NCBI GenBank assembly: GCA_025966315.1
Contig: JAOPUZ010000042.1
Span: 62,001-126,000 of the forward strand
Length of the DNA: 64,000 bases
DNA from: Frankiales bacterium
GTDB taxonomy: Bacteria; Actinomycetota; Actinomycetes; Mycobacteriales; Jatrophihabitantaceae
Direction of reading: 5' to 3'
Shown piece by piece: positions 11,072 to 36,282 of the stretch (the first letter of the stretch is position 1; each line of letters begins with the position of its first letter). The translations under genes and the position numbers were made by a program. Below the pieces are notes generated by a model that was not told the DNA's origin, made no database searches, and was given only the letters and a program-made list of their open reading frames with translations.

Positions 11072-11184
11072 CCTGACTCTCACAAACGAACTGATATTTT
11101 CCCCAGCGGAATAAACGGAAATGCCCTGCCCCTGCCCCTGCCGCTGGCTTGGGTAATCCGCTCGAAAAAGTTTCGGAGTGTGGC

Positions 11185-11679
11185 ATGCAACAAGCAGTAA
11201 AGAGATTCTGCGCACGACCTGTCCGGCGTCGCCTGGCCGTGGCGGGAGCAGTGTCCGCTGGGCTACTCGCCTTCGCGCCTGCGGCGAATGCAGTCGCCTG
11301 GTGGTCGATCAGCAATCCGCTGACAGCCACAAGCGGAGGTGTCGCGAAAGCGCAGGCGTATGGGCAGTTCGACAACGTGTCTTACAGCTATGCCAGGGTG
11401 AACAACAACGAGCGGGACCCCCAGCCCGGTGGTAACAAGGTGTTCGTGGACAACGCTTTCCAGTTCTACGCGCCGTCCGCGTCCGGCGTTATGGGGTGGA
11501 ACGTATACAGCACACAGCAGACGACCCGGAGCAACTCGGCATCGTGGTTGTACTACCCGAAGCAGACCTCGTTGTCGGAGGACTCGTCGCAGGCTCGGGC
11601 TCGCATCCACACCTGTGAGGACCAGTCTTTCTCCCCCGACCCGTGTTCGGTCAACGCGCTCCCTAGCTTTACGTACTGA
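11185..11679 (+). CDS. Secreted protein of unknown function encoded with an ABC transporter
   Basis: This is a 164-residue protein with a clear Sec signal peptide (arginine-rich start, hydrophobic core [12 protein letters not shown], cleavage near ANA-VAWW at about residue 36). The mature part is rich in Ser, Asn, Tyr and Trp, with two cysteines close together near the end ([16 protein letters not shown]). ATG 11185 has GGAG six bases upstream. The stop overlaps the ABC ATPase start as TGATG. This layout, a small secreted protein followed by an ATPase and multi-spanning proteins, recalls lactococcin-972-like bacteriocin cassettes. I see no clear sequence match, so export or immunity is only a guess. 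Confidence 0.7.
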
Positions 11680-19421: not shown

Positions 19422-19979
19422 GTGGAATCACTAGCGTTACCGAACGCCCGCAAGGCGCCCAGGTTCATTTTCCTATCCGACCGACGACCACGTTCGGCTT
19501 GGCATGACTCGTCCGCAGACGCCTCCGGACGCTTCGGCTGGCGCTTGATTGCGGCCAACAATCGTCCGATGGGTCGCTCGTCGAGCGCTTTCGACTCCGT
19601 CGAGGCCTGCCAGCAAAACGCTCAGCGGCTACGAGAAAACGCCGACCGGGTCTCCACGACGGTGTTATTTCGTTCCTCGGATTCGCGCTGGATATGGACC
19701 GTTTTGCTGGACAACGTGCCGTCCGCTGTCTGTGTGCACTTCTACAACCGTCGAGTTGAGTGCGTGCGCGCACTAGCCCAGTTCACCTCGGCCATCCGGA
19801 TCGCGGACCCGACCGTCACCGAACTACGGGACCTCGGACCGAACGCCCTGCGCGCCTACGACGAGGGACTCGGTGACAACCTGACGGTGGCGAGTGTGAC
19901 ACCCAGCCCGGCCCGGACCACGATCACCAACCGAATGCGGATCGCCAACGGGCTGCCGATTGTCGCCGTCGGAAGATGA
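19422..19979 (+). CDS. DUF1508-like hypothetical protein at the head of the phosphate locus
   Basis: About 185 residues from GTG 19422, chosen because GGAG lies seven bases upstream. Two similar halves can be seen: FGWRLIAANNRPMGRSSSAF and WIWTVLLDNVPSAVCVHFYN, each followed by a helix with spaced Arg and Ala. This recalls the small DUF1508/YegP fold, whose function is unknown. The last bases overlap the pstC start as ATGA, so it is translationally coupled to the transporter. A cytoplasmic regulatory role is possible but unsupported. Confidence 0.6.
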   Translation: MESLALPNARKAPRFIFLSDRRPRSAWHDSSADASGRFGWRLIAANNRPMGRSSSAFDSVEACQQNAQRLRENADRVSTTVLFRSSDSRWIWTVLLDNVPSAVCVHFYNRRVECVRALAQFTSAIRIADPTVTELRDLGPNALRAYDEGLGDNLTVASVTPSPARTTITNRMRIANGLPIVAVGR

Positions 19980-21037
19980 GGCCGTTGATCGGATTAGCCG
20001 ACGTTGCCGACGACCACCCGGACTCGGACGTCGACGAGGACGATCCGCGCCCGCTCGAGTCCGCGCTCGGACGTGACGACCGGGTGTTTCGCGGTCTGCT
20101 GCGGACCGGCGGACTGACGGTACTGACCATCATGGTGCTGGTCGGGGTGTTCCTGCTCTACAAGGGTGGCTCGGCGCTGCGGTCAGCCGGCTGGTCGTTC
20201 TTCAGCGTGAGCAGTTGGCAACCGGACGCCGGCCACGGGCATTTCGGGATCGCCGGCGTGCTGCTCGGCACGGTGCTCATCGCGCTGGTCGCGATCTGCA
20301 TCGCGGTGCCGCTGGCGACCGGGACCGCCCTGTACATCTCCGAATACGCCCCCCGCCGACTGAAACAAACCCTGATCAGCCTGGTCGATCTGATGGCGGC
20401 CGTACCCAGCGTGGTGTACGGATTGTGGGGATTCTTTCTGCTGCAGCCCGACGTACTGGTGCACGGCGCCGAAGGAAAGGGTCTGCCCCGATGGCTGGCG
20501 ACCTACTTCGGCTGGGTGCCGTTTCTGAAGGTGGACGGCTACCAGCCCCGCGATCCGCTGGCGACGCCGACCGTGCTGACGTCCTCGACGCTCATCGCCG
20601 GCGTGGTCGTGGCCATGATGGTGACGCCGATCATCTGCTCGATCATGCGTGAGGTGTTCTCGCAGGCCCCGGTGGGCGAACGGGAAGGCGCCTTCGCGTT
20701 GGGGGCCACCCGCTGGGGCATGATCCGTTCGGTCGTCCTGCCGTTCGGCAAGGGTGGGATGATCGGCGGTGCGATGCTCGGACTCGGTCGCGCGATGGGT
20801 GAAACGATCGCCGTGTACATGATCATCTCGCCGCTGTACGCCATCCAGCCTCACATCCTGCAGAGCGGGGCCAGCTCGGTTTCGGCTTTGATCGCGTTGC
20901 AGTACGGCGCGGCAACGCCGTTCGGCACGTCGGCCCTGATGGCCGCCGGACTCGCCCTGTTCCTGCTGACCCTGGTCGTCAACTTCGGCGCGTCGGCGAT
21001 CGTCGCCCGTAGCCGTTCCGGCGCGGCAACGGGCTGA
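19976..21037 (+). CDS. pstC: Phosphate ABC transporter permease PstC
   Basis: The protein has 353 residues. After a polar, acidic N-terminus of about 40 residues come six transmembrane helices. The central permease motif is REVFSQAPVGEREGAFALGA, TRWGMIRSVVLPFGKGGMIG, with the GETIAVYMII segment typical of PstC. Another hallmark is LVDLMAAVPSVVYGLWGFF. It pairs with PstA to form the channel for inorganic phosphate. The start overlaps the preceding gene by ATGA, and pstA begins five bases after the stop. Confidence 0.93.
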   Translation: MRPLIGLADVADDHPDSDVDEDDPRPLESALGRDDRVFRGLLRTGGLTVLTIMVLVGVFLLYKGGSALRSAGWSFFSVSSWQPDAGHGHFGIAGVLLGTVLIALVAICIAVPLATGTALYISEYAPRRLKQTLISLVDLMAAVPSVVYGLWGFFLLQPDVLVHGAEGKGLPRWLATYFGWVPFLKVDGYQPRDPLATPTVLTSSTLIAGVVVAMMVTPIICSIMREVFSQAPVGEREGAFALGATRWGMIRSVVLPFGKGGMIGGAMLGLGRAMGETIAVYMIISPLYAIQPHILQSGASSVSALIALQYGAATPFGTSALMAAGLALFLLTLVVNFGASAIVARSRSGAATG

Positions 21038-21042
21038 TCGCA

Positions 21043-22359
21043 ATGACCACTCTGCAGGAACCGCCCCGCACCGTGGTGCCGGCGGTGAGCGGGCCGCGAC
21101 TACCCGATCTGGCGATCACATCCGACCAATCGCTCGCGGGCGCATTCGATGACGGAGCGGATCCGCGCAACGAGCCCGAGCACCGTCGCAGCTCAGGGCT
21201 ACGAAATTCGGATGTCTTCTCGCTGCTCGGCGCGGCCGGCGCCGCGTTCGGCTTCACCGCCTTGTTGTTCAACAAGCTCGCGCCGTTGTCCGGAGTGCTC
21301 GGCTTTATCGTGGTCAGCTGGTGCAGCTTCATTCTGTTCTACGGCTTGCTGGTTTCCCTCGACGAATCCGGCCCGGCGGTACGTGACCGGCTGGCGTCGG
21401 TGCTGGTGCACAGCCTGGCCTTCCTGCTGCTGTGCGCGCTGGTCGTGGTCGTGGTCTTCACCCTCGTCCGCGGGCGACGTGCGTTGTTGCACACCAATTT
21501 CTTCACCCAGGACGTGCAGAACGCGGGGCCGCTGCAACCGCTCTCGGTCGGCGGCATCCTGCACGCCATCGTCGGCACCCTGGAGCAGATCGGGCTCTCC
21601 CTGCTGTTCTCGGTACCACTCGGCCTGGTCTGCGCTGTGTTCCTGAACGAGGTGCCTGGCCGGTTCAGCCGCTTCGTTCGTACCATCGTCGAGGCCATGA
21701 CTGCGTTGCCGTCCATCGTGGCCGGTCTGTTCATCTACGCCAGCGTCATTCTCATCCTGCATCAGGACAAGTCCGGTTTTGCCGCGGCGCTCGCGTTGAC
21801 GGTGATGATGCTGCCGATCATCATCCGGGCCGCGGACGTGGTGATCCGGCTGGTGCCCGGTACGTTGCGGGAGGCGTCGCTGGCCACCGGAGCATCCCAG
21901 TGGCGAACGGTCTGGCACGTGGTGCTTCCCACCGCGCGCTCGGGCCTGGCCACCGCGGTAATCCTGGGTGCGGCCCGCGGAATCGGTGAGACGTCGCCGG
22001 TATTGCTGACCGCCGGGTATACGGCCGCCATGAACGCCAATCCCTTCGTCGGGCCGCAGGTTTCGCTGCCGCTGGCGACGTTCGAGTTCGTCCGGTCGCC
22101 GCAGCCCAACGTCATTGCCCGTGGCTTCGGGGCGGCGGCCACGCTATTGCTCCTGGTCCTGGTGCTGTTCATCGTCGCTCGGTTGATCGGCGGCCGGGCG
22201 CCTGGCGTGTTGACGAAACGGCAGGAGCGCCGCCGCGCTGCGGCCAGCCGCCGCGACGCCCGCCGGTTCCGGGCCAGCGAGTTCAGCGGTACGGACCACG
22301 CATACCCACCCACCGACGAGCCGTCCGATCCAACACGCCCCGAAGGGCCCGCACTGTGA
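21043..22359 (+). CDS. pstA: Phosphate ABC transporter permease PstA
   Basis: The protein has 438 residues, longer than the usual 280-300, because of an N-terminal extension with two to three extra transmembrane helices (residues about 60-150) and a charged tail of about 45 residues. The PstA core is clear: VEAMTALPSIVAGLFIYASV, the EAA-like loop LREASLATGASQWRTVWHVV, and GAARGIGETSPVLLTAG. It forms the phosphate channel with PstC. The stop overlaps the next gene by GTGA. Confidence 0.92.
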   Translation: MTTLQEPPRTVVPAVSGPRLPDLAITSDQSLAGAFDDGADPRNEPEHRRSSGLRNSDVFSLLGAAGAAFGFTALLFNKLAPLSGVLGFIVVSWCSFILFYGLLVSLDESGPAVRDRLASVLVHSLAFLLLCALVVVVVFTLVRGRRALLHTNFFTQDVQNAGPLQPLSVGGILHAIVGTLEQIGLSLLFSVPLGLVCAVFLNEVPGRFSRFVRTIVEAMTALPSIVAGLFIYASVILILHQDKSGFAAALALTVMMLPIIIRAADVVIRLVPGTLREASLATGASQWRTVWHVVLPTARSGLATAVILGAARGIGETSPVLLTAGYTAAMNANPFVGPQVSLPLATFEFVRSPQPNVIARGFGAAATLLLLVLVLFIVARLIGGRAPGVLTKRQERRRAAASRRDARRFRASEFSGTDHAYPPTDEPSDPTRPEGPAL

Positions 22360-24047
22360 CTTTCCGCCGCCTCGGCCGAGTACTTTCCCGTTGTACCGCC
22401 GTACTGATCGTGCTGCTATCACTCGGGCTGCTGGCCGGCGTCCCGGCCCAAGCGGCGTCGGTGTACGTCCCGATCAGCGGCGCAGGTTCCACCTGGAGTT
22501 CCAACGCAATCGACCAGTGGCGACGCAACGTCACGCAGTACGGCATGCAGGTCAACTACAACCCGACCGGGTCGTCGGACGGCCGCAATCAGTTCACCAG
22601 CGGGACGGTTGACTTCGGCGTGTCCGAGATCCCGTACGGCCTGACCGACAACGGGGTAACCGACTACCCGCCTAAGCGGGGTTACGCCTATATGCCCATC
22701 GTGGCCGGCGGTACCTCGTTTATGTACAACCTGAAAGTCGGCACCAAGCAAGTCACCAACCTCCGGTTGTCCGGGCAGACGCTGTCCAAGATCTTCACCG
22801 GCGTCATCACGAACTGGTCGGACCCGGCGATCAAGGCCGACAACCCCGGCCTCGGCCTGCCGGCCCGCAAGATTGTGCCGGTGGTGCGCTCGGATGGTTC
22901 CGGTACGACGGCACAATTCACCACCTGGATGGCGAGTCAATACCCCGCGCTGTGGAACGCCTACTGCTTGAAGGTCGGACGCAAGTCCCCGTGCGGCCAG
23001 ACCTCGGTGTGGCCGGTAGCGCCGGGAACCGCATTCACCGCCCAGTCCGGATCCACCGGAACGGCGGGCTACGTGGCGCAGGCTCAGAGCATCGGCGCCA
23101 TCACCTACGTCGAGTATTCGTACGCGCTCAATTCTGGATTCCCGGTGGCGAAGATCCTGAACCAGGCCGGTTATTACACCGAGCCCACCGCCCAGAACGT
23201 CGCCGTTGCGCTGCTCAAAGCCAAGATCAACGACGACCCGAAGTCACCCAACTACCTGACCCAGGATTTGACCAACGTGTACGTCAATCCAGACCCGCGT
23301 ACCTACCCGTTGTCCAGCTACAGCTACATGATCATCCCGACCAAGATCGAATCCAAATTCACCACTAATAAGGGATATACGCTGGGCGCGTTCTCGTATT
23401 ACTTTCTTTGTGAAGGCCAACAGCAGGCCCCGAATCTGGGTTATTCGCCGCTTCCCATCAACCTGGTCCAAGCCGGGTTGGCCCAGGTACGCAAGATTCC
23501 CGGGGTCGACGTACAGAGCGTGGACATTGCCAAGTGCAACAACCCCACCTTTTCCAAGGACGGGACGAACACCTTGGCCAAGAATGCCCCGCAGCCCTCG
23601 CCGTGCGACAAGATCGGCGTCACCCAATGCAGCAACGGCACCGGCGGCGCCAAGAACACCAGCAACGCCAACACCGGTACGCAAACCGTAGCCAGCGGAA
23701 ATTCGACCAGCGGCAGCAACCAAGCCGATCCCGCGAACACGCCCGGCGGTGCGCGGACGGGTTCATCAGGTGTCGCTAAGCCCGGAGCCAAGCCAACCAA
23801 GTCCGTCGCCGCCGGGTCTGGCGCGATCACCGGGGCGCCCGACCCCGCCAGCGATGCGGGCGCTGCTGGCACGAGCGATCCGGCCGGGGATGCCAACGCC
23901 CTGACGGTGGCGGCTGTTCCGGTGGCCTTGTCCGCCAACAACGGATCCGCTACCGATCAAGCCATGATGGCCATCGCGGCCGCGATGTTGTTGCTGCTCA
24001 TCACCGGTCCGCCCTTACTCGTCCGGCTGATCCGAGGTCGACGATGA
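22356..24047 (+). CDS. pstS: PstS-like phosphate-binding protein with C-terminal membrane anchor
   Basis: The protein has 563 residues, far longer than typical PstS (about 370). The signal peptide ends VPAQA-ASVYV without a lipobox cysteine. The binding-protein core shows SGAGSTWSSNAIDQWR, FGVSEIPYG and the phosphate-loop-like VRSDGSGTTAQFTTW. After about residue 400 comes a Ser/Gly/Asn/Pro-rich linker. A C-terminal transmembrane helix (MMAIAAAMLLLLITGPPLLV) and arginines follow. It is therefore probably tethered by its C-terminus rather than by lipid. The start is GTG overlapping the pstA stop. Phosphate is the probable ligand, inferred from the loop and the context. Confidence 0.82.
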   Translation: MTFRRLGRVLSRCTAVLIVLLSLGLLAGVPAQAASVYVPISGAGSTWSSNAIDQWRRNVTQYGMQVNYNPTGSSDGRNQFTSGTVDFGVSEIPYGLTDNGVTDYPPKRGYAYMPIVAGGTSFMYNLKVGTKQVTNLRLSGQTLSKIFTGVITNWSDPAIKADNPGLGLPARKIVPVVRSDGSGTTAQFTTWMASQYPALWNAYCLKVGRKSPCGQTSVWPVAPGTAFTAQSGSTGTAGYVAQAQSIGAITYVEYSYALNSGFPVAKILNQAGYYTEPTAQNVAVALLKAKINDDPKSPNYLTQDLTNVYVNPDPRTYPLSSYSYMIIPTKIESKFTTNKGYTLGAFSYYFLCEGQQQAPNLGYSPLPINLVQAGLAQVRKIPGVDVQSVDIAKCNNPTFSKDGTNTLAKNAPQPSPCDKIGVTQCSNGTGGAKNTSNANTGTQTVASGNSTSGSNQADPANTPGGARTGSSGVAKPGAKPTKSVAAGSGAITGAPDPASDAGAAGTSDPAGDANALTVAAVPVALSANNGSATDQAMMAIAAAMLLLLITGPPLLVRLIRGRR

Positions 24048-26596
24048 TGCGCGGGCCGATGGCAGCGCACTCCCGCCGGGTCCGGCGCCCGAGGCTGCGC
24101 GCGGCGGTGGTCTTCGGATGGATCGGTGCGCTGGCCGCGACCTCGTTGTGGATGTCGCCCAGTGGGACGGCAGCCACGGCTCCGTCGACCGCCGGGCCGG
24201 GCCTGACCGATTCGGCCATGACCCGCGCCGGCGACGGCAACTTCGCGGGGTTGAAGGTGACGGTGGGCCAGACCAAGGACCTGATCAACCAGGTCGTCTC
24301 CGTGACCTGGACCGGCGGCACCCCGACCCGGCCGTCCTCAGTCAATGCCAGCGCCAATTACCTGCAGATAATGCAGTGCTGGGGCGACGACCCGGCTGGT
24401 CCGGACCGGACCCAGTGCCAGTTCGGCGCGACGCTGGACACCGGGCTGGTCGGTGGGCAGGGCAACCATGCCACCGACCGGCAGGTCAACTACAACCCGC
24501 CGACCATCGATCCCAAAGAGACGATTCTGTCGACCGACGGGCAGAACGTCGGCGTCCCGTTCGACTCGGTCACCGACCCCAAGACACCGATCCGGGGCAT
24601 CGGGGGTAACCAGTTCTTCGACGCCAATACCACCAATGACATACCGTTTGCCCGTACCCGGCAGGACGGCACCGGCCAGCAGTTCTTCGAGCTGCAGGCG
24701 GCGCGGGAAGCGCCCGGGCTCGGTTGCGGAACCCCATTGAAGGCCTCCGATGGCACAACGGTCGGACGGTCGTGTTGGTTGGTCGTCGTTCCGCGTGGAG
24801 ACACCGAGGTCAACGGTGACAAGGTCTTTCCCGATGGCGGTGGGCCCAACAACGCGCTGCGCAACCTGGTGTCCTCGCCGTTGAGTCAGACCAACTGGGA
24901 TGCGCGGATCGTGTTTCCGCTGCAGTTCGAGCCGGAAGGCAACGTCTGCCCGGTCGGCGCGGTCGAACGCCGGATGATCGGCCAGGAAGCAATCACCGAA
25001 GCGGTTACCCGATGGCAGCCGGTCCTGTGCAAGAGCACCGGCACGGTCTACGGGTTCTCTCAGGTGCCCGATGACGCAGCCCGCCGGCAACTGGTATCCG
25101 ACGATCCGTCGATGGTCTTCACCGGCCAGGCGGTCCCACCCGATTCGGTACCGGCCAAACGCAGCGTGGTGTACGCGCCGGTCGCGGTGTCCGGCTTGGC
25201 CATCGCCTTCGACATCGAGCGGCAGTCCAGCTTTGACGCGACGCCACAAGTGGCGGCCCAGGACGGTGAGCGGCTCAGCACCCTCAATCTCACACCCCGC
25301 CTGGTGGCGAAGCTGTTGACCCAGTCATACCGTTACTCGATACCGGACCGCAGCGCCGCCTACCTGGCCGGCAATCAGCGCGACCTCACCACCGACCCAG
25401 ACTTTCTGCAGTACAACCCCGTGTTCAAAGAGCTGAACTTTCCGAACAGCTTTGCGATCGGGAACATGGTGATGCCGTTGGGTCTGTCCGACTTGGCCTC
25501 GGAACTCTGGACCTGGATCGCGGCCGATCCCGAGGCCCGGGCCTTCATGGCCGGCAAGCCGGATCCGTGGGGCATGACGCTCAACAAGAATTACGACGGC
25601 ACGCCACTGACGCTGAACAGCTATCCAATGAGCGACCTCTCGTGTGTCAAGCCCGGTCCGGATCCGACCGAGGTCTGTGCCCTGGACGAGCGTCCGCTGG
25701 CCAACGACATGCACGCCGGCATCCGTGGCGTCAGTCGCGGTGACACCGGCGGCAAGAACGGCATCGACAACACGGTCACGCCGCCGGTGCTGACCAAGAC
25801 CCCGCGCCAGGCCCAAGGCCAGACGGCACTCATCGGGGTGGCTGACGTCGCGACGGCCGCTCGGTACGGACTGCCCACCGCGGCCTTGCGCAACTCGGCC
25901 GGCAAGTTCGTCACCCCGACGACGTCGGCTTTGCTGGCCGGGGTCACGGCTATGAAGCCGTCCGAGGTGCCGGCAGTGTTGCGCCCTGATCCGACCACGG
26001 CGAGTCCGACGGCCTATCCGTTAACGGCAATCTCGTATGCGGCGACCGTGCCGGCCGCGATCGATGCGGCGGCCGGCAAGGACTTCGCCGCATTCCTGCG
26101 TTTCGCCGCCGGCAACGCTCAGCAGCCTGGGGTGGCTATCGGAACGTTGCCGTTCGGCTATGCCCCGCTGCCCGCGAAGTTACGAAGTCAGACGGTCAAG
26201 GCGGCGGCCCTGATCGAGTCGAGCGCGGGCAAGCCGACCACCGTCGCAAGTCCGGCGTCGGGAGCGAACCCACGGGCATCGGTGAGGGTGCGCCGTCCGG
26301 ACTCGGAATTCGTTGGAAACGGCAACGATCCGGACGCGACGAGTGCTGAAAACCCTGCTGCCGTAGCGGATTCGCCCGCCGTCGCGCCCGCACCCGCAGG
26401 CTCGAAAGCCGGCGCCGCCGACCCGTCCTCAGCAGGCACGCCGAGTCCGCAGCGCTCCCTCACGCTGGTGGGGGCGGCTACTCCGGCGACCTCGGCCGGT
26501 GCCGGTGGTTACGTGGTGTTGACGCTGGCGGTGCTCGCCGCCACGGGAATCCTGATCGGCCCGGTGTATTTGCGGCTGGCCCGACGCCTCCGGTAG
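24044..26596 (+). CDS. Large membrane-anchored substrate-binding-like protein of the phosphate locus
   Basis: The protein has 850 residues. It has an N-terminal signal or anchor (LRAAVVFGWIGALAATSLWM) and a C-terminal transmembrane helix (GGYVVLTLAVLAATGILIGP) followed by RRLR. In the middle, VVYAPVAVSGLAIAFDIERQ and LTPRLVAKLLTQSY resemble the hinge region of PstS proteins, but the domain is interrupted by long insertions. Many cysteines suggest disulfides. The region before the anchor is Ala/Pro/Ser rich. The ATG overlaps the previous stop by ATGA. I infer a giant accessory phosphate- or phosphoester-binding protein; the exact ligand is unknown. Confidence 0.6.
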   Translation: MMRGPMAAHSRRVRRPRLRAAVVFGWIGALAATSLWMSPSGTAATAPSTAGPGLTDSAMTRAGDGNFAGLKVTVGQTKDLINQVVSVTWTGGTPTRPSSVNASANYLQIMQCWGDDPAGPDRTQCQFGATLDTGLVGGQGNHATDRQVNYNPPTIDPKETILSTDGQNVGVPFDSVTDPKTPIRGIGGNQFFDANTTNDIPFARTRQDGTGQQFFELQAAREAPGLGCGTPLKASDGTTVGRSCWLVVVPRGDTEVNGDKVFPDGGGPNNALRNLVSSPLSQTNWDARIVFPLQFEPEGNVCPVGAVERRMIGQEAITEAVTRWQPVLCKSTGTVYGFSQVPDDAARRQLVSDDPSMVFTGQAVPPDSVPAKRSVVYAPVAVSGLAIAFDIERQSSFDATPQVAAQDGERLSTLNLTPRLVAKLLTQSYRYSIPDRSAAYLAGNQRDLTTDPDFLQYNPVFKELNFPNSFAIGNMVMPLGLSDLASELWTWIAADPEARAFMAGKPDPWGMTLNKNYDGTPLTLNSYPMSDLSCVKPGPDPTEVCALDERPLANDMHAGIRGVSRGDTGGKNGIDNTVTPPVLTKTPRQAQGQTALIGVADVATAARYGLPTAALRNSAGKFVTPTTSALLAGVTAMKPSEVPAVLRPDPTTASPTAYPLTAISYAATVPAAIDAAAGKDFAAFLRFAAGNAQQPGVAIGTLPFGYAPLPAKLRSQTVKAAALIESSAGKPTTVASPASGANPRASVRVRRPDSEFVGNGNDPDATSAENPAAVADSPAVAPAPAGSKAGAADPSSAGTPSPQRSLTLVGAATPATSAGAGGYVVLTLAVLAATGILIGPVYLRLARRLR

Positions 26597-26805
26597 ACGC
26601 GGCCACCGGTGCGCGCCGGTGCGCGCGTGGTAATCGACCGCGCCCGCTAGGACTTGAGGATTCCCGTTAGGAGAAAGCTAAGTGTTTGCCTGCCGGACGT
26701 TTCTCGTAACCGGCGGCGTACCGGGAGTTTGGTTGCACGCTTCTGTACTGCTCATGCGTTGCTGACGCCGGGTCAGGACGAGCATTACAGAGGGAGACAG
26801 TGCAG
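26597..26805. promoter_or_regulatory. Gap of about 210 bases before the secreted binding protein, possible internal promoter
   Basis: This is the largest gap within the phosphate locus up to the PHP gene. It starts with a GC-rich imperfect repeat (CCGGTGCGCG twice) and becomes less GC-rich towards the strong ribosome site AGGGAG at 26791. No gene is supported. An internal promoter here would explain how secreted proteins could be made in excess of the permease. Confidence 0.4.
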
Positions 26806-27795
26806 ATGAGAATTAGCAGGAATCGCAAGGCTTCACTCCTTGCCTGCATCGCAATCAGCGCCGGGGTCATCGCGGCCTTGCAGAGCGGTACGGCGCAGGC
26901 GGACCCGCCGGCCGGCACGTTCGGCCAGTTGGCCGGCGTTGGCTCGGACACCACTCAGGGTGTCATGAACGGTCTGGCCACCGCGATCGGCGGCGGCACG
27001 GTCGCTTCCTACGACGCGGTCGGCTCAGCCACCATCAGCACCAAGTCGGGAACGACCTGCACCATCACCCGCCCCAACGGTTCCGGCCCGGGCGTCGACG
27101 CGCTGGTCGCCTCGAACGCCGCTAGCAACAACTGCGTCGACTTCGCCCGTTCGTCCTCGGACAACCGCAGCAGCTACGCCGGCAAGGGCCTCACCTACAT
27201 CCCGTTCGCGCAGGACGCCGTGGCGTACGCAGTCCGCTCGGACAGTGGCGTCAGCAAGAAGCTGACCACCGCCAACCTGAAGTCGATCTACACCTGCGCG
27301 TTGCCCGCCGCTACCCAGGCCAACTTCAAGCCGATGCTGCCGAAGTCCGGTTCCGGTACCCGCAAGTTCTTCCTCCAGTCACTGGGCCTCACCGACACGG
27401 CGACGTACACCACCGACAACCCGTGCGTCAGCCAGGTCGACGGTTCCGGCAATCCCTTCGAGGAGAACACCGGCACCCTGCTGACCGACCCCAAGCAGCT
27501 GGTGCCTTACTCGATCGCTGTCTACCAGTCGCAGGTCAACGGCACGGTGGCCGACGTTCACGGCTCGGCCGTACTCGCCCAGGTCAACTCCATCGCGCCG
27601 CTCGAGTTGAACACCGACTCCAGCTTCAAGCGTGAGGTCTTCAACGTCATCGAGAGCTCGGACGTGAACACCGCCCCGTTCAGCACCACCTTCAAGGGCG
27701 CCACGTCGTCGGTCTGCGCCAACGCCGCCACCATCGAGAAGTACGGCTTCGCACTCGACCCGAACTGTGGTTCAACCACCCTGGTCACCCCGTAG
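26806..27795 (+). CDS. Secreted PstS-like substrate-binding protein
   Basis: The protein has 329 residues with a Sec signal peptide (SLLACIAISAGVIAALQSGT, then AQA-DPP). The mature part starts LAGVGSDTTQGVMNGLATAI, as in PstS-like proteins, and has FARSSSDNR, the hinge AYAVRSDSGVSKKLT and a phosphate-loop-like LPKSGSGTRKFF. Several cysteines suggest disulfides. There is no lipobox and no C-terminal helix, so it should be released or wall-bound. ATG 26806 is chosen over GTG 26800 because AGGGAG is nine bases upstream. It may pass phosphate to the anchored binding proteins. Confidence 0.75.
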   Translation: MRISRNRKASLLACIAISAGVIAALQSGTAQADPPAGTFGQLAGVGSDTTQGVMNGLATAIGGGTVASYDAVGSATISTKSGTTCTITRPNGSGPGVDALVASNAASNNCVDFARSSSDNRSSYAGKGLTYIPFAQDAVAYAVRSDSGVSKKLTTANLKSIYTCALPAATQANFKPMLPKSGSGTRKFFLQSLGLTDTATYTTDNPCVSQVDGSGNPFEENTGTLLTDPKQLVPYSIAVYQSQVNGTVADVHGSAVLAQVNSIAPLELNTDSSFKREVFNVIESSDVNTAPFSTTFKGATSSVCANAATIEKYGFALDPNCGSTTLVTP

Positions 27796-27840: not shown

Positions 27841-29466
27841 ATGTCCACAAAGCTCACCAAGCGCCTGGTTGGCGCTGGGGCCCTGGCCGCGACGGCCTCG
27901 TCCCTGATGTTCCTCGGAGCGGGAGCCGCCAATGCGGCCATCGCTCCGGGTAGCGGCGCCGGCGGCGGCACGCTGACCGCAGCGTCGTTAGCAACCGGTT
28001 CCGACCTCAGCGCGCCGACGGTTGTCACCTCGGGCGGCTGCGGCACCGATGGCGCCGACTCGTTCCTGATGCGGTTGTACGGTGCGGGGTTCTCATCCGA
28101 CGGCTTCGTCATCACGACGCCGACCGACGCCGGATTCAGCACCAGCGCCCCGATCACGGCCTCCTTCGGACTCACCTTCAAGGATGCCGCGACGCTGGCC
28201 GGGACGACGATCCAGACCGGTGAATACGACCTGCGACTGCAGTGCGTCGATACTCTGGGCGACGTCTTCACCGACTTCACCACCGAGGTCGACTTCACCA
28301 GCCCGACCGCCTACAGCTTCAAGACGGCCGGACCGACGCAGGTCACGACCGCCACGTCACTCACCGTGACCCCGGGCACGTCCGCCAGTGTCGGCGATCC
28401 GGTTACGCTCACCGCCGCCATCACCCCCGCCGCGACTGGCTCGGTTCAGTTCAAGGATGGTGCGGCCAACCTCGGTTCGCCGGTCACGGTCGCCGCCGGT
28501 AGCGCCTCGCTGGTGACCAGCGCCTTGACTGCGGCGACGCACAGCCTGTCGGCTGTCTTCACCCCGACCGACGCGGCGGCCTTCACGAGCTCGACTTCGG
28601 CCGTCATCAGCTACCCGCTCAACGGCACGACGACGCCGGGCGCGACCGCCACCACGACGACCTTGGCGGCGGACAACACCTCCGTCGCCACGGGCGATCC
28701 GATCACCTTCACCGCGGCGGTGGCTCCGGCCGACGCCGTGGGCAGCGTTGACTTCAAGGACGGCTCGGCCACGATCGGCAGCCAGCCCGTCGCGGCTGGT
28801 ACGGCTTCACTCACCCTGAGCTCGCTCAGCGTGGGCCCGCACTCGATCACCGCGACCTTCGTCCCGACCGACGCCACGGCGTTCGGGACCTCGGACTCGG
28901 CTGCCGTCACGGTTACGGTCACGGGCGTTGTCACCCCGCCGACGACCGGCAACACCGACGTGCAGAACATCCAGGGCACGGTCGATGCCGGCACTGTCAC
29001 GGTGTCGACCCCGTACACCCCGACCAGCCCGCTCGACCTGGGCACCTTGGCGTTGAACAGCGACGCCACTTTGCTCAGTGCCAGCAAGCCGTTCGAGAAC
29101 ATCACGGTCACCGACACCCGGGTTGGCGCGACGAACCTGGGCTGGAGCATGACGGCCAAGTCCTCGAACCTCATCAGTGGCACGGACGCGATCAACGGTG
29201 AGAACGTCGGCCTGACCGGTCTGACCAAGAACCTGGTTGCCGGTAACGCGCAGGACGGCTCCACGGTCACCGTGACCAACGTCCCGGCCGCCAATGGCGT
29301 GTCCGCCGCTGACGCCGGTACCGCCGGTCTCAAGAGCGGACCGACGGTTGCTGCCGCCACCGCCGGCCGCGGCACGATCGGTCTGAGCGGCCAGCTCACG
29401 CTGAACGCGCCGACCTCGACCAACCCGGGTCTGTACAAGGGCACCGTGACGTTCACGATCTCCTAG
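27841..29466 (+). CDS. WxL-like surface protein with two Ig-like repeats
   Basis: The protein has 541 residues. A signal peptide ends near residue 32. Residues 34-162 form a domain shared with the protein at 31120 (GGCGTDGADSFLMRLYG; cysteines 67 and 135). Two Ig-like repeats follow at about 173-258 and 270-361, each with GDPxTxTA and VGSVDFKDG-like strands. Residues 380-541 resemble a WxL domain: LDLGTLALNSD, VTDTRVGATNLGWSMTA, and the end GLYKGTVTFTIS. WxL domains bind the cell wall non-covalently. AAAGGA precedes the ATG. The next gene encodes a DUF916-like partner, which supports the reading. There is no sorting signal and no anchor. Confidence 0.7.
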   Translation: MSTKLTKRLVGAGALAATASSLMFLGAGAANAAIAPGSGAGGGTLTAASLATGSDLSAPTVVTSGGCGTDGADSFLMRLYGAGFSSDGFVITTPTDAGFSTSAPITASFGLTFKDAATLAGTTIQTGEYDLRLQCVDTLGDVFTDFTTEVDFTSPTAYSFKTAGPTQVTTATSLTVTPGTSASVGDPVTLTAAITPAATGSVQFKDGAANLGSPVTVAAGSASLVTSALTAATHSLSAVFTPTDAAAFTSSTSAVISYPLNGTTTPGATATTTTLAADNTSVATGDPITFTAAVAPADAVGSVDFKDGSATIGSQPVAAGTASLTLSSLSVGPHSITATFVPTDATAFGTSDSAAVTVTVTGVVTPPTTGNTDVQNIQGTVDAGTVTVSTPYTPTSPLDLGTLALNSDATLLSASKPFENITVTDTRVGATNLGWSMTAKSSNLISGTDAINGENVGLTGLTKNLVAGNAQDGSTVTVTNVPAANGVSAADAGTAGLKSGPTVAAATAGRGTIGLSGQLTLNAPTSTNPGLYKGTVTFTIS

Positions 29467-29587: not shown

Positions 29588-29688
29588 GCGTTTCCTGACG
29601 GCCTGGCTGGCCAGTGGCGGCGTCGCGGCCGTTCGTCGTTCATCGCGAGTTGGCTCATGGTTGTTCCGCGACAGATTCCCTGCCTGAC

Positions 29689-31026
29689 ATGAGAACCCTT
29701 ATCCCGGTGGGCGAATCTCGCTTCGCCCACCGCCGGCGAGGGCCCGCGGCGCGGGCGACGGTGTTGCTGGCCGTACTCGCGTTCCTGCTCGTGCTGGCCG
29801 GCGGCACGGCCGTCGCGGCTGGACCGAGCGGCCCCGCAGTGCCCCCGCCGTCCAACGTCTCGGGACCGACGACCACGGCGCCGGGCAGCACGAGCCCGCC
29901 GAGCACCACCGGTAAGCCGAGGGCGGTCAGCAAGAACGCGACCTTCGGAGTGCAGCCGGCCAACGCCAAGAAGCCTGACGCACGCCCGTTCTTCTCCTAC
30001 GCCGCAACGCCCGGGGCCAGCGTCATCGACCACGTGGCCGTCCGCAACCCCGGTGCCGTTCCGATCACGGTCGCGCTCTATGCCTCGGACGCCTCGACCG
30101 CACCGGACGGCAGTTACAACCTCAGCCTGGCCGGGGGCCGCAACTCCGGTGTCGGTAGCTGGGTCCGGCTGGCGAACGGCGCGAAGTCGGTAACGGTGGC
30201 CCCGCGTACGAACGTCATCGTGGCCCTGCGGCTGACCGTGCCGGCCAACGCCGAACCGGGTGATCACGCCGGCGGGATCGTAGCCTCCCTCGGATCGGAA
30301 GCCCAGACGTCCCAAGGGGACAAGGTGAATCTCGATCAGCGGGTGGCGTCGCGAATCTACTTGCGGGTCAGCGGCCCGCTGCATCCGAAGCTGCAACTGG
30401 ACGACTTCCGAGTGAGCTACCACCCGACCGGATCGATCGGGAACCCGGCCCGGTCCGGCCTGGTCACGATGACCTACCTAGTCCGCAACACCGGCAACGT
30501 CCGGCTCTCGGCCGATCAACGGGCCACGGTGAAGGGGCTCATCGGGGGTACCCGGCGCGCCGACCTGCTCGCCCGGTTGCCTGAGGTGTTACCCGGCAGC
30601 TCCGTCCAGGTCACGGCCGAGGTGCGCGGTGTACTCCCGGCGGTGCGCATCACGGCGACCGCCACCGTGACGCCTCGCTCGGAGAACAACGCGAGTGACC
30701 CGTCGCTGTCAAGGGTCGCCCAGTCGGCCAGCCTGTGGGTACTGCCCTGGCTCGCAATCGGCTTGTTCGTACTGGTCGTTCTCATCGGGCTGTTGCGCTG
30801 GCTCCGCCGCCGGCCGGTCGACGCCGGCCCCCAGCACGGACCCGGTACTCGGGGCGGCGGTACCGGCGCCTTGGCCGTCGCCGGATCGGCCGCGCATGGT
30901 GCGGGAAAGCCGACCGAAAACCGGCCGCTGGTCATCGACCGTACCGAGTCCAGCTTGAGCCCCGTCCGGTGCCACTTGAGCCGGCGCGCGTCGTTCGTCG
31001 TTCATGTCGGCGTACCGGGACGTTAG
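29689..31026 (+). CDS. DUF916-like (WxL-associated) membrane-anchored surface protein
   Basis: About 445 residues from ATG 29689. An N-terminal signal segment lies at 23-44 and a Pro/Thr/Ser linker at 45-80. A domain from about 83 then reads ATFGVQPANAKKPDARPFFS, DHVAVRNPGAVPITVALYAS, followed by a second beta domain with NTGNVRLSADQ. A transmembrane helix at about 348-370 (LPWLAIGLFVLVVLIGLLRW) is followed by arginines. This order matches DUF916/DUF3324 proteins, which accompany WxL proteins and bind peptidoglycan or WxL domains. The ribosome site is weak and the start is uncertain. Confidence 0.72.
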   Translation: MRTLIPVGESRFAHRRRGPAARATVLLAVLAFLLVLAGGTAVAAGPSGPAVPPPSNVSGPTTTAPGSTSPPSTTGKPRAVSKNATFGVQPANAKKPDARPFFSYAATPGASVIDHVAVRNPGAVPITVALYASDASTAPDGSYNLSLAGGRNSGVGSWVRLANGAKSVTVAPRTNVIVALRLTVPANAEPGDHAGGIVASLGSEAQTSQGDKVNLDQRVASRIYLRVSGPLHPKLQLDDFRVSYHPTGSIGNPARSGLVTMTYLVRNTGNVRLSADQRATVKGLIGGTRRADLLARLPEVLPGSSVQVTAEVRGVLPAVRITATATVTPRSENNASDPSLSRVAQSASLWVLPWLAIGLFVLVVLIGLLRWLRRRPVDAGPQHGPGTRGGGTGALAVAGSAAHGAGKPTENRPLVIDRTESSLSPVRCHLSRRASFVVHVGVPGR

Positions 31027-31119: not shown

Positions 31120-32271
31120 ATGTCCAAGCTCAAGTATCGGCGCCTTTACGCCGCGGCTGCCACGATCGCGGTTGCGGCAGCCACCACGGGAACCTTGCTG
31201 CTGGCCAGCTCTCCGGCCGGGGCCGCTATCCCACCGGGCACCGGGGCCGGGGGCGGCAAGCTGACGCCCACCTCGCTGGCCACGGGCACTGACCTCAGCG
31301 CGCCGACAGTGCTCACGTCGGGTGGTTGCGGGACGGACGGCGCGGACTCGTTCCTGATGCGGTTGTACGGCCACGGATTCTCCCCAGACGGCTTCGTCAT
31401 CCTTACGCCGACCGACGCCGGTTTCTCCACGACAAATCCGATTCCGGGTTCATTCGGGCTGATCTGGAAGGACGCAGCGACTCAGGCCGGCACCGTGATC
31501 CAAGCCGGTGAGTACGACCTGCGACTGCAATGTGTCGACACCCTAGGCACCGTCTTCACAGACTTCACCACCTCGGTCGTCTTCAGCGACGCCACGCACT
31601 ACGCCTTTGCCGGGTTCGCTCCGCCGACGTCGCCGCCGGCCACCTCCACGCACCCGACGACGACGGCGCCGCACACCAGCGCTCCCGCTACCACCAAGGC
31701 GACGACGACGAAGCCGCACACCACGGCGCCGGCGACGACCAAGGTGAGCACCACGGCGGCGCACACCAGTGCGGCGCCGACCACGAACGCGAGCACCGCG
31801 GCACCGCACACCACGGCGGCGAACCCGAGCACCGCTGTCGATGGGGTTGACGCCTCGGGCAACGCTCTCAGTGACAGCCCGGCACTCGCGCCCGGCGACT
31901 CGGTCACGTTGTCGGTGGCCGGCTTCGCGCCCGGCGCCACGGTCAGCGCCACCTTGCGTTCCACTCCGCAGAGCCTGGCACCCACCACCGCGGACGCCAG
32001 CGGGGCGATCTCGTACAACTTCAGCGTGCCCAGCACGCTGGAGGCCGGCTCGCACACTCTCACCTTCACCGCCGGCGCCGTCAGTCGGGTCTTCGACTTC
32101 ACCGTCAGCGGTGACCCGGCCGGTACCGGTACCGATTCCGGCGGCCAGTTGAGCAACACCGGTGCACACGTCGCGGTCGCCGGCGGGATTGGCGTGCTCT
32201 GCATCGTTGCCGGCGGGGTCGCGGTACTGGCTGGCCGCCGGCGTGGGTTGCTGCACGGCCGCCGAAGCTGA
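31120..32271 (+). CDS. Surface protein with LSNTG sorting-like signal and Thr-rich stalk
   Basis: The protein has 383 residues. After a signal peptide, residues 36-163 repeat the domain of the WxL-like protein (AIPPGTGAGGGKLTP, GGCGTDGADSFLMRLYG; cysteines 70 and 138 with identical spacing). A Thr/Pro/Ala/His-rich stalk made of imperfect TTTAPHTSAPATTK-like units spans about 170-238. A further beta domain (SPALAPGDSVTLSVAGFAPG) follows. The tail has LSNTG at 344-348, a hydrophobic stretch and GRRRGLLHGRR, the layout of a sortase substrate (LPxTG/LAxTG class). The next gene encodes a sortase-fold protein. Confidence 0.78.
   Translation: MSKLKYRRLYAAAATIAVAAATTGTLLLASSPAGAAIPPGTGAGGGKLTPTSLATGTDLSAPTVLTSGGCGTDGADSFLMRLYGHGFSPDGFVILTPTDAGFSTTNPIPGSFGLIWKDAATQAGTVIQAGEYDLRLQCVDTLGTVFTDFTTSVVFSDATHYAFAGFAPPTSPPATSTHPTTTAPHTSAPATTKATTTKPHTTAPATTKVSTTAAHTSAAPTTNASTAAPHTTAANPSTAVDGVDASGNALSDSPALAPGDSVTLSVAGFAPGATVSATLRSTPQSLAPTTADASGAISYNFSVPSTLEAGSHTLTFTAGAVSRVFDFTVSGDPAGTGTDSGGQLSNTGAHVAVAGGIGVLCIVAGGVAVLAGRRRGLLHGRRS
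31640..31830 (+). repeat. Thr-rich stalk repeat in the LSNTG surface protein
   Basis: Imperfect repeats of units encoding T-T-x-P-H-T-x-A-P-A-T-T-K form the stalk. They are built from ACC/ACG, GCG and CAC codons. This is a typical extended, possibly glycosylated spacer between a surface domain and the wall. Confidence 0.7.
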
Positions 32272-32282
32272 TTCGCTCGACT

Positions 32283-33269
32283 ATGCCAGTCATCGGATCC
32301 GAGGTGCGGACGGCGCCCAAACCGACTTTGCCGTTCCATCACAAAGGCAAAGTACGCCGTCGTCGCTGGTCGATCAGGCCCCGCAAGCCTGTTCGACCGG
32401 CCGCGACGAGCCGGGCTCCGTTGGCTCTCGGGCCGTATCTGACCGGCAGTGCGCTGACCGTATTGGGAGCGCTGCTGGCCGCGTTCCTGCTTCAACTGCT
32501 GGTGCTCAGCCCGGTGCAACACGCCCAAGCCCAGCGGGTGTCCTACGCCAGCCTGCGGTCGGAGCTGGCGCAGGCCATCGCGCCCGTCGGCCAGGTGGAC
32601 GGCGACAGCCGGGTGCTTGCCCTGGGTAGCCCGGTCGCGCTGTTGGAGATACCCGCCCTCGGCTTGCGCGAGGTCGTCGGCGAGGGCACCACCGCGGGCG
32701 TTCTCACGGCTGGCCCGGGGCACGAACGCGATTCGGTGTTGCCGGGGCAGGCCGGTACCAGCGTGATCTTCGGGCGACGGGCGGCCTATGGCGGTCCGTT
32801 CCGGCACCTGGAGCAGCTACGGCCGGGAGACCGGATCACCGTGCAAACCGGGCTGGGCAGCCATACCTACGCGGTGCTCGGCGTACGACGTGGCGGCGAT
32901 CCGCAACCGCTGGCGCTGTCTGGTTCGTCCGGGCGCTTGACCCTGGTCACGGCGACCGGGCCGGCCTACCGGCCCACCGGGGTGCTGCGGGTGGACGCCG
33001 AGCTGACCTCGCCCGCTCAGGCGCATCTCGTGCCGGTCATCCCGGTCGGGGGCGTCCCGGCCGCTGAACGCGCGCTGGCCGGTGACCAGAGCGAGTGGCT
33101 GGCCGTGATGCTCTGGGGCCAGTTACTGGTGGTGCTCACCTTGCTGCTGGTCTGGGTGCGCTCCCGGTGGGGACGCTGGCAGAGCTGGATCGTCGCCGTT
33201 CCCGTTCTCGGCGCCGTCGGCGTGCAGGTCGCCGATCATGTCAGCCGGTTGCTTCCCAATCTGCTCTGA
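32283..33269 (+). CDS. Sortase-fold membrane protein lacking the catalytic His and Cys
   Basis: The protein has 328 residues. It has a basic N-terminus, a transmembrane helix at about 54-74, a sortase-like domain at about 110-242 and further hydrophobic segments near the C-terminus. The sortase framework is clear: [17 protein letters not shown], then [20 protein letters not shown] and LRPGDRITV. The catalytic His of the usual GHR motif is Arg165 here ([10 protein letters not shown]). The catalytic Cys of the LVTC motif is Ala224 (LTLVTATG), and the catalytic Arg is not in place. It is therefore unlikely to be a transpeptidase. It may bind the LSNTG protein or act as a scaffold. Confidence 0.75.
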
Positions 33270-33319: not shown

Positions 33320-34198
33320 ATGAGTGCCAGTGCCCCCGCAGGTCCCGAGTTCGTCACCGATCGGATCAGCCCGCTGTCGACCAGCACCGCGGCGGACGGC
33401 TACCTCGTTGCCGTGCCGCAGCCGCTGGCCGGTATCGAGGCCCGTGGTGTGTCAGCCTGGTTCGGCGACCGGAAGGTGCTCGACCGGGTGTCGCTGCTCA
33501 TGCCGGCCGGGCAGGTGACGGCGCTGATCGGCCCGTCCGGCTGCGGTAAGTCGACGTTTCTGCGGATCCTCAACCGGATGCACGAACTGATCCCGTCGGC
33601 ATCCCTGGCCGGTGAGGTGCTGCTCGACGCCGAAGACATCTACGCGCCGCAACGCCGCTTGACCGAGGCTCGGCGCCAGATCGGCATGGTGTTCCAGAAG
33701 CCCAACCCGTTCCCGGCGATGTCCATCTACGACAACGTGGTGGCCGGGTTGAAGCTGACCGGCACAAAGGTCTCGCGTAGTGACCGGGACGTGCTGGTGC
33801 AGGAATGCCTGTCCAAGGGCGGCCTGTGGAACGAGGTCAAGGACCGGCTGCGCCAACCCGGCGGCGCCCTGTCCGGCGGCCAGCAACAGCGGCTCTGCAT
33901 TGCCCGTTCGCTGGCCGTCCGTCCGCGGGTGCTGTTGATGGACGAGCCGTGCTCGGCGCTGGATCCGACCTCGACCCGGCGCATCGAACAGACCATCGCC
34001 GAACTGGCCGCCGAGGTGACCATCGTGATCGTCACCCACAACATGCAGCAGGCGGCCCGGGTGTCCGATCAATGCGCCTTCTTCCTGGGCAGCCAATCGA
34101 CTCCAGGCGTCATCGTCGAATACGGCCCCACCGACGCGATGTTCTCCGAGCCGCAGGACAGCCGGACGCTTGACTACGTCAACGGCCGGTTCGGCTGA
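33320..34198 (+). CDS. pstB: Phosphate ABC transporter ATP-binding protein PstB
   Basis: About 292 residues from ATG 33320, with AAAGG upstream; ATG 33314 is possible. A polar N-terminal extension of about 38 residues precedes the core. Walker A is GPSGCGKST. The PstB-specific [20 protein letters not shown], the signature [16 protein letters not shown], Walker [14 protein letters not shown] and the H-loop VTHNMQQA are all present. It energises the PstC-PstA channel. It is separated from pstA by six genes, whereas in the usual order pstS-C-A-B the genes are adjacent. Confidence 0.93.
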
Positions 34199-34464: not shown

Positions 34465-36282
34465 ATGAGCCACGATGAACACACCCATAGCCATGGAACG
34501 CACAGCCATGGCGCCGGACAACCGCACACCCACCCCCACGATCACGTCCACCCCGCCGAGGAGTCCTCGCCGGCGCACGTCGAAGCGATCGACTTGATTC
34601 GCCCCGACTCCGAGCTGAGCCCGAACGGATTGAACCGCCGTAATTTCCTGCGCGCCAGCGGGCTGCTGGGCGCCGGTGCGGCGGCGGCCTCGGTGTTCGG
34701 AATTGCCGATTCCGCGGCCGCCTCGCCGGTCGAATCGGGCGCGCCCAGCCGGGGTCGCGAGAACCAGGGTGGTTACCAGTGGCTGTCCGGCGATCATCAC
34801 ATCCACACCCAGTACAGCAATGACGCGCAGTACCGGGTCAGCGACCAGGTCCGGCACGCGGCGCAGAACGGCCTGGACTGGATGGTCATCACCGATCACG
34901 GCAGCGTCGCGCACGCCAAGTTCGGCGTCGACAAGGTCAACCCGGACATCAAGGTCGCGCGCAAGAACTTCCCGGACACGCTGGTCTTCCAGGGTCTGGA
35001 GTGGAACATCCCGGCCGCCGAACACGGCACGGTGTTCGTTGCCCCTGGACCCAACGAGGTCGCCGTCCTCAAGCAGTTCGAGAACTCCTACGACGGGACG
35101 GTGAACAACGCCGGGCCGTCCACGCCCAAGAACGAGGCTTTGGCCATCTCTGGATTGGCCTATCTCACCCAGGCCGTGCGTCAGCGCCGGGTCGGTGATG
35201 CCCTGATGCTGGCCAACCACCCGTCCCGCAAGGGCATTGACAGCCCGCACGAGATCCGCGCCTGGCGCGACACCGCACCGGGGATTGCCGTCGGCTTCGA
35301 AGGCGCTCCCGGTCACCAGGCCGGTGGCATCAAGGCGCCCGGCCCAGCCGGTGGCCGCGGTGAATACGACTTCTCGCCCAGCCCGGACTCGTTCGCCGGA
35401 TTCCCGTTGGAGAGTTACCGCACCTGGGGCGGCTTCGACTTCATGACCTCCACCGTGGGCGGCCTCTGGGACAGCCTGCTGGCCGAGGGAAAACCTTGGT
35501 GGATAACGGCAAACTCCGATTCGCACAAGGTGTACGCCGACTGGTCCAAGAACCCGGTCGACAACAATGCGGACGCCCCGTGGGACAGCGCCGGCGACAC
35601 GTTCAACAACTTCGGCCGGTTCGGTGACCCGGTCTACGCCGACGGCATCCAGACCGCGAACGCCGATTTCTGGCCCGGGTACTTCAGCCGGACGCACGTC
35701 GGGTCGACCGGGTTCAACTACGGCGCCGTGATGAGCGGCATTCGCGCCGGGCGGGTCTGGGTCTCGCACGGTGACCTGATCGCCGGCTTGGACATGCGGG
35801 CCGGCGTCAAGGGAAAGCACGGGCCCGGAACGGCGCTCGGCGGCAAGTTGGCGGTGCGCGAACGTGAGACGGTGACCCTCTCGATCAAGATCACGCTGGC
35901 CGACGGCCCGAACTTCGCCCAGTTCACTCCGAAGCTCAACCGAGTCGATTTGATCGTGGGTGACATCCTCGGACCGAACACCGACCGGGACGCGTTCACC
36001 ACCCCGAACACCAAGGTCGTCAAGTCCTGGGACACCAGCAAGTCAGTGGGAACCGTGACGCTGACCTACAGTTTCCCGCGGGTGGACCGGCCCTTCTACG
36101 TTCGGATTCGGGGAACCGACGCGAACCGCACGGCTCCCGGTTACCTGGGCGCTGGGGTCGATCCGATCGGGCCGGCTATCGACATCGTCGGCGACGCCGA
36201 CCCGTGGGCCGACCTGTGGTTCTACTCGAACCCGATCTTCGTGCTCACGCCCAGCCCGCTGCCGTACAACCGCGCTCGATAA
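34465..36282 (+). CDS. Tat-exported PHP-domain phosphoesterase with His-rich N-terminus
   Basis: The protein has 605 residues. Residues 4-29 hold eleven His in HxH-type clusters (HTHSHGTHSHG, HTHPHDHVH). A twin-arginine signal follows (LNRRNFLRASGLLGAGAAA, 57-73). The PHP metallo-phosphoesterase motifs come next: SGDHHIHTQYS (about 108-118), VITDHGS (141-147), ANHPSR and ITANSDSHK. The C-terminal third is beta-rich. PHP enzymes bind three metals and cleave phosphoesters. Export in folded form suits a metalloenzyme, and its place after the pst genes suggests it releases phosphate outside the cell. The His-rich segment before the Tat motif is unusual. Confidence 0.82.
   Translation: MSHDEHTHSHGTHSHGAGQPHTHPHDHVHPAEESSPAHVEAIDLIRPDSELSPNGLNRRNFLRASGLLGAGAAAASVFGIADSAAASPVESGAPSRGRENQGGYQWLSGDHHIHTQYSNDAQYRVSDQVRHAAQNGLDWMVITDHGSVAHAKFGVDKVNPDIKVARKNFPDTLVFQGLEWNIPAAEHGTVFVAPGPNEVAVLKQFENSYDGTVNNAGPSTPKNEALAISGLAYLTQAVRQRRVGDALMLANHPSRKGIDSPHEIRAWRDTAPGIAVGFEGAPGHQAGGIKAPGPAGGRGEYDFSPSPDSFAGFPLESYRTWGGFDFMTSTVGGLWDSLLAEGKPWWITANSDSHKVYADWSKNPVDNNADAPWDSAGDTFNNFGRFGDPVYADGIQTANADFWPGYFSRTHVGSTGFNYGAVMSGIRAGRVWVSHGDLIAGLDMRAGVKGKHGPGTALGGKLAVRERETVTLSIKITLADGPNFAQFTPKLNRVDLIVGDILGPNTDRDAFTTPNTKVVKSWDTSKSVGTVTLTYSFPRVDRPFYVRIRGTDANRTAPGYLGAGVDPIGPAIDIVGDADPWADLWFYSNPIFVLTPSPLPYNRAR

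Follow-up and report, generated by a model that had tools for sequence, protein, structure and literature searches.

A clade of sortase-fold proteins without the catalytic triad is linked to a specialised Pst-type phosphate operon in Actinomycetota

Sortases are known for their cysteine chemistry. The described systems that stand closest to the locus considered here are the class E sortases, represented by SrtE1 (5cuw) and by the NCBIfam model NF033747, the Pst phosphate ABC operons, and the WxL/DUF916 (Csc) clusters of Firmicutes, in which DUF916/WxLIP proteins occur together with sorting-signal and large secreted proteins, as described in excerpts of the Csc literature (PMC9772566). The catalytic residues of SrtE1 are His251, Cys320 and Arg329, and modelling places Tyr229 of the β3/β4 loop, Ala249, Thr318, Ile331 and residues 291-299 at the LAXTG peptide, according to the SrtE1 study (PMC5148588). 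Here we describe a protein encoded in a stretch of 64,000 nucleotides from a Frankiales bacterium (contig JAOPUZ010000042.1, hereafter the window), which has in common with the class E enzymes the barrel, the N-terminal transmembrane (TM) helix and the GPGH and LTLxT framework, but differs from them in being without the catalytic His, Cys and Arg and the LAXTG tyrosine, in scoring below the class E cut-off, in a β6/β7 loop that is shorter in alignments, and in two extra C-terminal TM helices. We refer to it as a pseudosortase.

The gene starts 11 bp after the stop codon of a gene for a secreted LSNTG protein (Table 1). A first-pass annotation, made from the letters of the sequence, had described an open, well-coded frame with an intact sortase framework, and had proposed structure prediction as a check. 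Both descriptions hold: the frame is open, with a GC3 of 0.82, its product matches the Pfam family Sortase (PF04203; E 1.8e-14, 54 bits against a cut-off of 26.6), which is its sole Pfam match above cut-off, and its AlphaFold2 model is a sortase barrel (pLDDT 89.7, pTM 0.81). The top VIA-align match of this predicted model is SrtD (4d70, Z 18.5), and the comparison with SrtE1 (5cuw) gives a Z of 15.7 and an rmsd of 2.1 over 130 residues. The best NCBIfam model is the class E sortase NF033747, whose score of 69.2 bits falls well short of the 160 bits set as cut-off. Both PF04203 and NF033747 are matched at E 0.001 by 37/37 rows of an alignment of the window protein with its relatives (A1, below), the NF033747 score being known for the window row only. 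The protein probably consists of a cytoplasmic tail (residues 1-47), a first TM helix (TM1) within helix 49-96, the barrel at about residues 110-245, and two C-terminal TM helices, TM2 (271-296) and TM3 (298-323), with LLPNLL at its end. These two helices had escaped the first-pass annotation, as had the Pst operon in which the gene lies and the fact that loss of the triad is conserved.

Aligned with active class E sequences, 21 of 21 of which carry H/C/R in the three catalytic columns, the window protein has R165/A224/V234. The earlier reading of Arg165 in place of the catalytic His and Ala224 in place of the Cys is thus right, numbering included, and its remark that the catalytic Arg is absent from the expected position is borne out by Val234. 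The protein is almost certainly catalytically dead by the sortase mechanism. A relocated cysteine as nucleophile is ruled out because the translation contains no Cys at all, and His147, conserved in the pseudosortases, is equally so in active enzymes. That the protein might be a cryptic enzyme with another nucleophile could be argued from Thr223, which is present in 97% of rows, and from the Ser found at the Cys position in 18 of 46 pseudosortases in the tree below, but 26 of the same 46 have Ala there, the His is gone from all of them and the Arg from 45, and active enzymes keep the near-invariant Thr223 equally well, which leaves this reading very improbable.

Table 1. Genes of the Pst-type operon in the window and codons at the former catalytic positions of the pseudosortase.
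Feature	Position	Strand	Evidence
PstC permease	19976..21037	+	TIGR02138 245.2 bits, cut-off 196.45
PstA permease	21043..22359	+	TIGR00974 212 bits, cut-off 193.45
PstS, C-terminal TM-like anchor (anchor by eye)	22356..24047	+	TIGR00975 203.4 bits, cut-off 205; Pfam PBP_like_2
P850, large membrane-tethered PstS-like protein	24044..26596	+	AlphaFold2 pLDDT 82.3; Foldseek 8ods E 5.1e-13
P331, secreted PstS-like binding protein	26800..27795	+	NCBIfam ptsS_2 E 6.7e-6, 25.5 bits, far under cut-off
Secreted protein with Big_3_5 repeats	27841..29466	+	Big_3_5 E 1.3e-26; C-terminal part WxL-like by eye only
WxLIP/DUF916-domain protein (start uncertain)	29614..31026	+	PF06030 32.2 bits, cut-off 27.3
Secreted LSNTG protein; hydrophobic stretch and RRR tail, sorting-signal-like	31120..32271	+	Read from sequence
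Pseudosortase, 328 aa, ATG start	32283..33269	+	Pfam, AlphaFold2 model, alignment A1
Arg165 codon (catalytic-His position; G-R-R for G-H-R)	32775..32777	+	Alignment, column counts
Ala224 codon (catalytic-Cys position; LVTA for LTTC)	32952..32954	+	Alignment, column counts
Val234 codon (catalytic-Arg position)	32982..32984	+	Alignment, column counts
PstB ATPase (in-frame ATGs 33314 and 33320)	33320..34198	+	TIGR00972 336 bits, cut-off 343.2

A search with the whole protein in 298 genomes of the same order returned at least 36 further loci, from 32 genomes, whose matches run through the C-terminal tail to residue 325-328. In the alignment of these with the window (A1), 37/37 have R or K in place of the His and A, S or T in place of the Cys, and the third column is never Arg. 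The next 21 matches of the same search end by residue 265, and all 20 sequences examined among them carry GHR and TTC...R; it is coverage and the active site that part the two sets, which E-values fail to do (1.2e-20 against 1.9e-20). As A1 was too diverse for the purpose, a collection with one genome per species was scanned with A2, a closer subset of A1, giving 385 relatives, of which 80 were retained. These and the window have R at the His column in 81/81, a column that is biased in this set because one of the two scan patterns demands R there; Cys and Arg are absent from the two remaining columns in all 81. In a phylum-wide draw of 396 genomes only 11 had a match at E 1e-22, the window's own genome among them, so that the family is patchy; nine of the ten further matches are without His and Cys, and the tenth, L191, is an active enzyme. 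A search for plasmid-borne relatives gave no match at E 1e-20.

An intact triad in orthologues at the same locus would, in the first-pass annotation, have marked the window copy as a decayed enzyme, yet all aligned sequences of the pseudosortase clade (the window, the 36, the 80 and the 9) lack both His and Cys. Nine of nine close pairs have a dN/dS of 0.10-0.44, pointing to purifying selection. Decay, or a pseudogene, might be suspected where catalytic His, Cys and Arg are all missing, but is extremely improbable because the same losses recur across one clade, dN/dS is far below 1 and the family matches listed contain no in-frame stops. As far as the sequences tell, loss of the triad is a conserved state, and the suggestion of a non-catalytic sortase-fold protein under selection is upheld.

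The pseudosortases form a single clade. In a maximum-likelihood tree of 82 rows computed with the catalytic columns removed, 46 pseudosortases lie beyond one branch with a support of 100/98; their His column holds R in 44 and K in 2, their Cys column A in 26, S in 18 and T in 2, and one has kept the Arg, against H, C and R in all 36 active rows. The tree rows exclude the 80 collection-scan loci and take 14 of the 30 loci L218-L247, plus L191; two further sortases of the window's own genome (L002 and L003, class F-like by eye) were excluded both from the tree and from the column comparison below. L191 is active (AGHR, TTC...R) and has the same two-helix C-terminal tail, ending in ...RLLPANY, and a search with it led to further active two-helix sortases (the set comprises L191/L218, L219-L225, L230, L233, L235, L236, L243, L245 and L246). 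These class E-like enzymes are homologous to the pseudosortases along the same tail but, unlike them, have an intact triad in 15/15 tree rows, and pstC, pstA, pstS or P850 lie near them in 0/14 loci. When the tree is drawn from all columns and rooted on 21 class E rows, the pseudosortases nest among the 15 active two-helix rows; the class E rows are weakly grouped, and L192 forms a long branch of unsure placement. One of the two earliest-branching pseudosortases of the all-column tree, L190, still carries the Arg, though its His and Cys columns hold R and S, and it lies in the company of pstC, pstA, pstB and pstS. The data fit a single origin in which the Arg was lost later than His and Cys. 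We infer that this origin was from an active class E-like sortase already provided with a two-helix C-terminal tail, and that the loss of His and Cys, then of Arg, may have fallen around the time of joining the pst genes. L191, with no pst gene in 19 kb apart from a weak ATPase match (77.8 bits), offers a possible picture of the ancestor, as an intact sortase with a two-helix tail outside a pst operon.

In the window the gene order is pstC, pstA, tethered pstS, P850, secreted PstS-like protein, Big_3_5 protein, WxLIP/DUF916 protein, LSNTG protein, pseudosortase and pstB. The likeness to a Pst phosphate ABC operon lies in the joint presence of pstS, pstC, pstA and pstB, with PstC and PstA above curated cut-offs and PstS and PstB marginally under theirs; beyond the usual Pst set, there are three PstS-like proteins, surface proteins and the pseudosortase. 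Going by the family names, phosphate is the probable substrate. P850 (850 aa) has no Pfam match and a partial NCBIfam PstS match under the cut-off (E 5.2e-10), and its predicted model has a PstS fold with extra β parts and a C-terminal TM helix, its top Foldseek match being the PstS 8ods. The WxLIP/DUF916 protein, above the PF06030 cut-off and the only match to that family in its own genome at E 0.01, recalls the Csc clusters of Firmicutes, as do the sorting-signal-like and large secreted proteins. Unlike those clusters, the window cluster is joined to a Pst transporter; no Pfam WxL match was found at E 0.1 in either the Big_3_5 or the LSNTG protein, resemblance to WxL domains being by eye, and the part of the Csc description consulted makes no mention of a pseudosortase (PMC9772566).

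Several further features of the region may be recorded. The Big_3_5 and LSNTG proteins have in common, by eye, an N-terminal domain of about 130 aa (GGCGTDGADSFLMRLYG...), for which there is no Pfam match. On the 3' side of pstB, 34465-36282 encodes a PHP-domain protein, possibly a phosphoesterase, which has a His-rich N-terminus and matches a Tat signal, and the genome has a second pstC-like locus (a pair) on contig C74. Control of the operon through a PHO box is unsupported: with a PHO-box consensus, no site with at most three mismatches was found 5' of the window pstC or of the PHP gene, and the excess of such sites in pstC-upstream regions of related loci (19/49, against 170/980 random stretches) is not built on here.

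The association with pst genes extends across the family. The set of 126 loci consists of 121 distinct pseudosortase loci, the second members of four duplicate pairs and L191, which is active, and many of the pseudosortase loci are shorter than the full extent. By score thresholds, at least one of pstB, pstC, pstA, pstS and P850 is found on the same strand in 114 of the 121 and at least three in 87, numbers that rise to 120 and 94 with either strand, and to 120 and 105 with either strand, a looser threshold and six components including P331. Profile building drew on the window and on the loci retrieved first; among the 88 loci that did not enter it, at least one same-strand component is present in 88 and at least three in 66. 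pstB is the next gene after the pseudosortase in 88/117, and P850 is matched by its profile in 99/121. Among control loci of class E/F sortases, 0/23 reach the pst thresholds, two having weak ATPase matches. An ABC ATPase is often found near the active two-helix sortases (L248-L261), CcmA-like by eye in three loci; the weak 'pstB' matches at 10 of these 14 (37-89 bits), like that beside L191, were rejected as other ABC ATPases.

The seven loci without a same-strand pst gene, L063-L069, form one branch, and six of them have nearby pst genes on the other strand, perhaps belonging to an ordinary pst operon. Of the 121 loci, L066 alone has no pst gene in its 19 kb, whichever strand is considered. 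At L063, in the same divergent branch, the pseudosortase lies between a subtilase (PF00082, 6659-8548) and a protein of about 800 aa without a Pfam match (9647-12067).

The window protein is very probably a dedicated part of its Pst operon, while linkage to pst genes alone is no proof of membership in the complex. Its relatives are likewise without the triad and mostly lie in the same kind of phosphate-uptake cluster, and we therefore read it as a conserved non-enzymatic part of the system and not as a broken enzyme. In our preferred reading, to which we give a probability of about 60%, it is a sortase-fold protein, non-catalytic and anchored in the membrane, that serves a specialised actinobacterial (Actinomycetota) Pst-type phosphate ABC transporter as a subunit with an adaptor role. 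The barrel would sit on the outer face of the membrane and, together with TM1 and the TM2-TM3 hairpin, would hold the PstS-like and surface proteins of the operon, or set their position, at the PstC-PstA channel, and the former active site, with the arginines of the family (columns 148/149/165), would bind an acidic partner or an anion in place of a sorting signal. To this mechanism as proposed we attach a little less than even odds. Points against the reading are the seven loci that lack a same-strand pst gene, the Glu of the window at column 148, the lack of a PHO-box-like site ahead of the window operon, and the enrichment of sorting-signal ORFs in family loci (below), which speaks for a receptor. 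The pseudosortase could also be a regulatory partner, a heterodimer subunit or decoy that steers an active class E sortase to the Pst complex, with which its fold and family and the intact class E sortase encoded in the genome would agree; since its constant neighbours are the pst genes, we consider this quite improbable.

The first-pass annotation had suggested a possible non-catalytic receptor or scaffold for the LSNTG tail. The C-terminus of the LSNTG protein has the pentapeptide motif, hydrophobic stretch and basic tail of an LPXTG-type substrate, and scores 18.8 bits, under the cut-off of 27, with the NCBIfam LAVTG-type domain. Across the family, an ORF with a sorting signal by a simple rule is found in 76 of the 126 loci (the four duplicate pairs and L191 included), against 5/23 control loci of class E/F and 3/14 of active two-helix sortases; it lies immediately upstream in 57 of the 121 loci with more than 600 bp of upstream sequence, and the commonest form of the signal is LASTG (24). 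The association is thus real, though not constant: the remaining loci have no such ORF by this rule, and in several the pseudosortase gene directly follows P850. A receptor or chaperone would bind the LSNTG/LASTG tail uncut, for the active class E sortase to take over, and a peptide-bound C-to-A sortase has been crystallised, as the title of 8t8g states.

The residues that line the substrate site argue differently. Our column comparison includes L001, the intact class E sortase of the window's own genome, 20 of the 21 same-order matches next in rank (without G146) and, of the 80 collection-scan loci, the 59 whose start is tidy, with Tyr229 of SrtE1 set at column 148 from the Y229-H251 spacing in 5cuw. 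Tyr occupies this column in 21/21 active rows, Arg in 70 of 93 distinct pseudosortase rows, and Glu in the window, which is thus without the β3/β4-loop tyrosine of class E. At column 163 (Ala249), Ala in 21/21 active rows is replaced by Met, Tyr, Phe or Leu in 81/93 pseudosortases, and the Arg329 position is mostly aliphatic or small. In at least 70% of pseudosortase rows Arg or Lys has been gained at columns 148, 149, 165, 202 and 218, and Arg or Lys has been lost at columns 169, 180, 228 and 234; total charge thus changes little, the mean number of Arg and Lys in columns 110-245 being 12.5 against 10.9, and it is the placing of charge that differs. Aligned to SrtE1, three of the five columns of gain (148/149/165) would fall in what was the active site, where the arginines may cluster, and the other two at the end of β6 and the start of β7; an earlier placement of R202 along the S4 subsite was dropped, as a gapless count against 5cuw puts it at the β6 end.

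Replacement of the class E LAXTG contacts (roles after PMC5148588) and the acquisition of arginines where the active site used to be disfavour a canonical receptor for the LSNTG tail, which we hold to be unlikely. The window's own genome encodes L001, whose 19-kb stretch also includes a LASTG protein (L070), and this enzyme could process the LSNTG tail. The link to an LxxTG protein drawn in the first-pass annotation is thus supported in part. The gained arginines would suggest an acidic or anionic partner for the former active site. R165 at the His position and, in most relatives, R148/R149 at the former LAXTG-tyrosine loop have led us to a further, tentative and on balance doubtful idea, in which the active site has become an anion-binding arginine pocket. 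At the membrane this pocket would sense phosphate, polyphosphate or a wall polymer rich in phosphate, or capture it, and would gate the Pst transporter. If true, a protein-anchoring enzyme would have been recast as a sensor or subunit of nutrient uptake.

Among the matches listed by a full-text literature search, judged by title and the start of the abstract, none described pseudosortases as a natural family or placed a homologue of sortases within a pst operon, and the word 'pseudosortase' was absent from the top-ranked papers; most subscription papers lie outside the scope of the search, and absence from it is no proof. There is good support for a conserved clade of pseudosortases that is tied to a specialised Pst operon; that they act as adaptors, or possibly as subunits that bind anions, is our inference. 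The finding points to an actinobacterial surface assembly, for which we found no description in the literature searched, in which a Pst transporter is joined by surface proteins and by three proteins of the phosphate-binding type. A single clade without the Cys and tied to phosphate-uptake genes would constitute a natural pseudosortase family, whose members could, through their profile matches, be counted as sortases, and would be evidence that a sortase barrel is able to work as a binding or adaptor domain.
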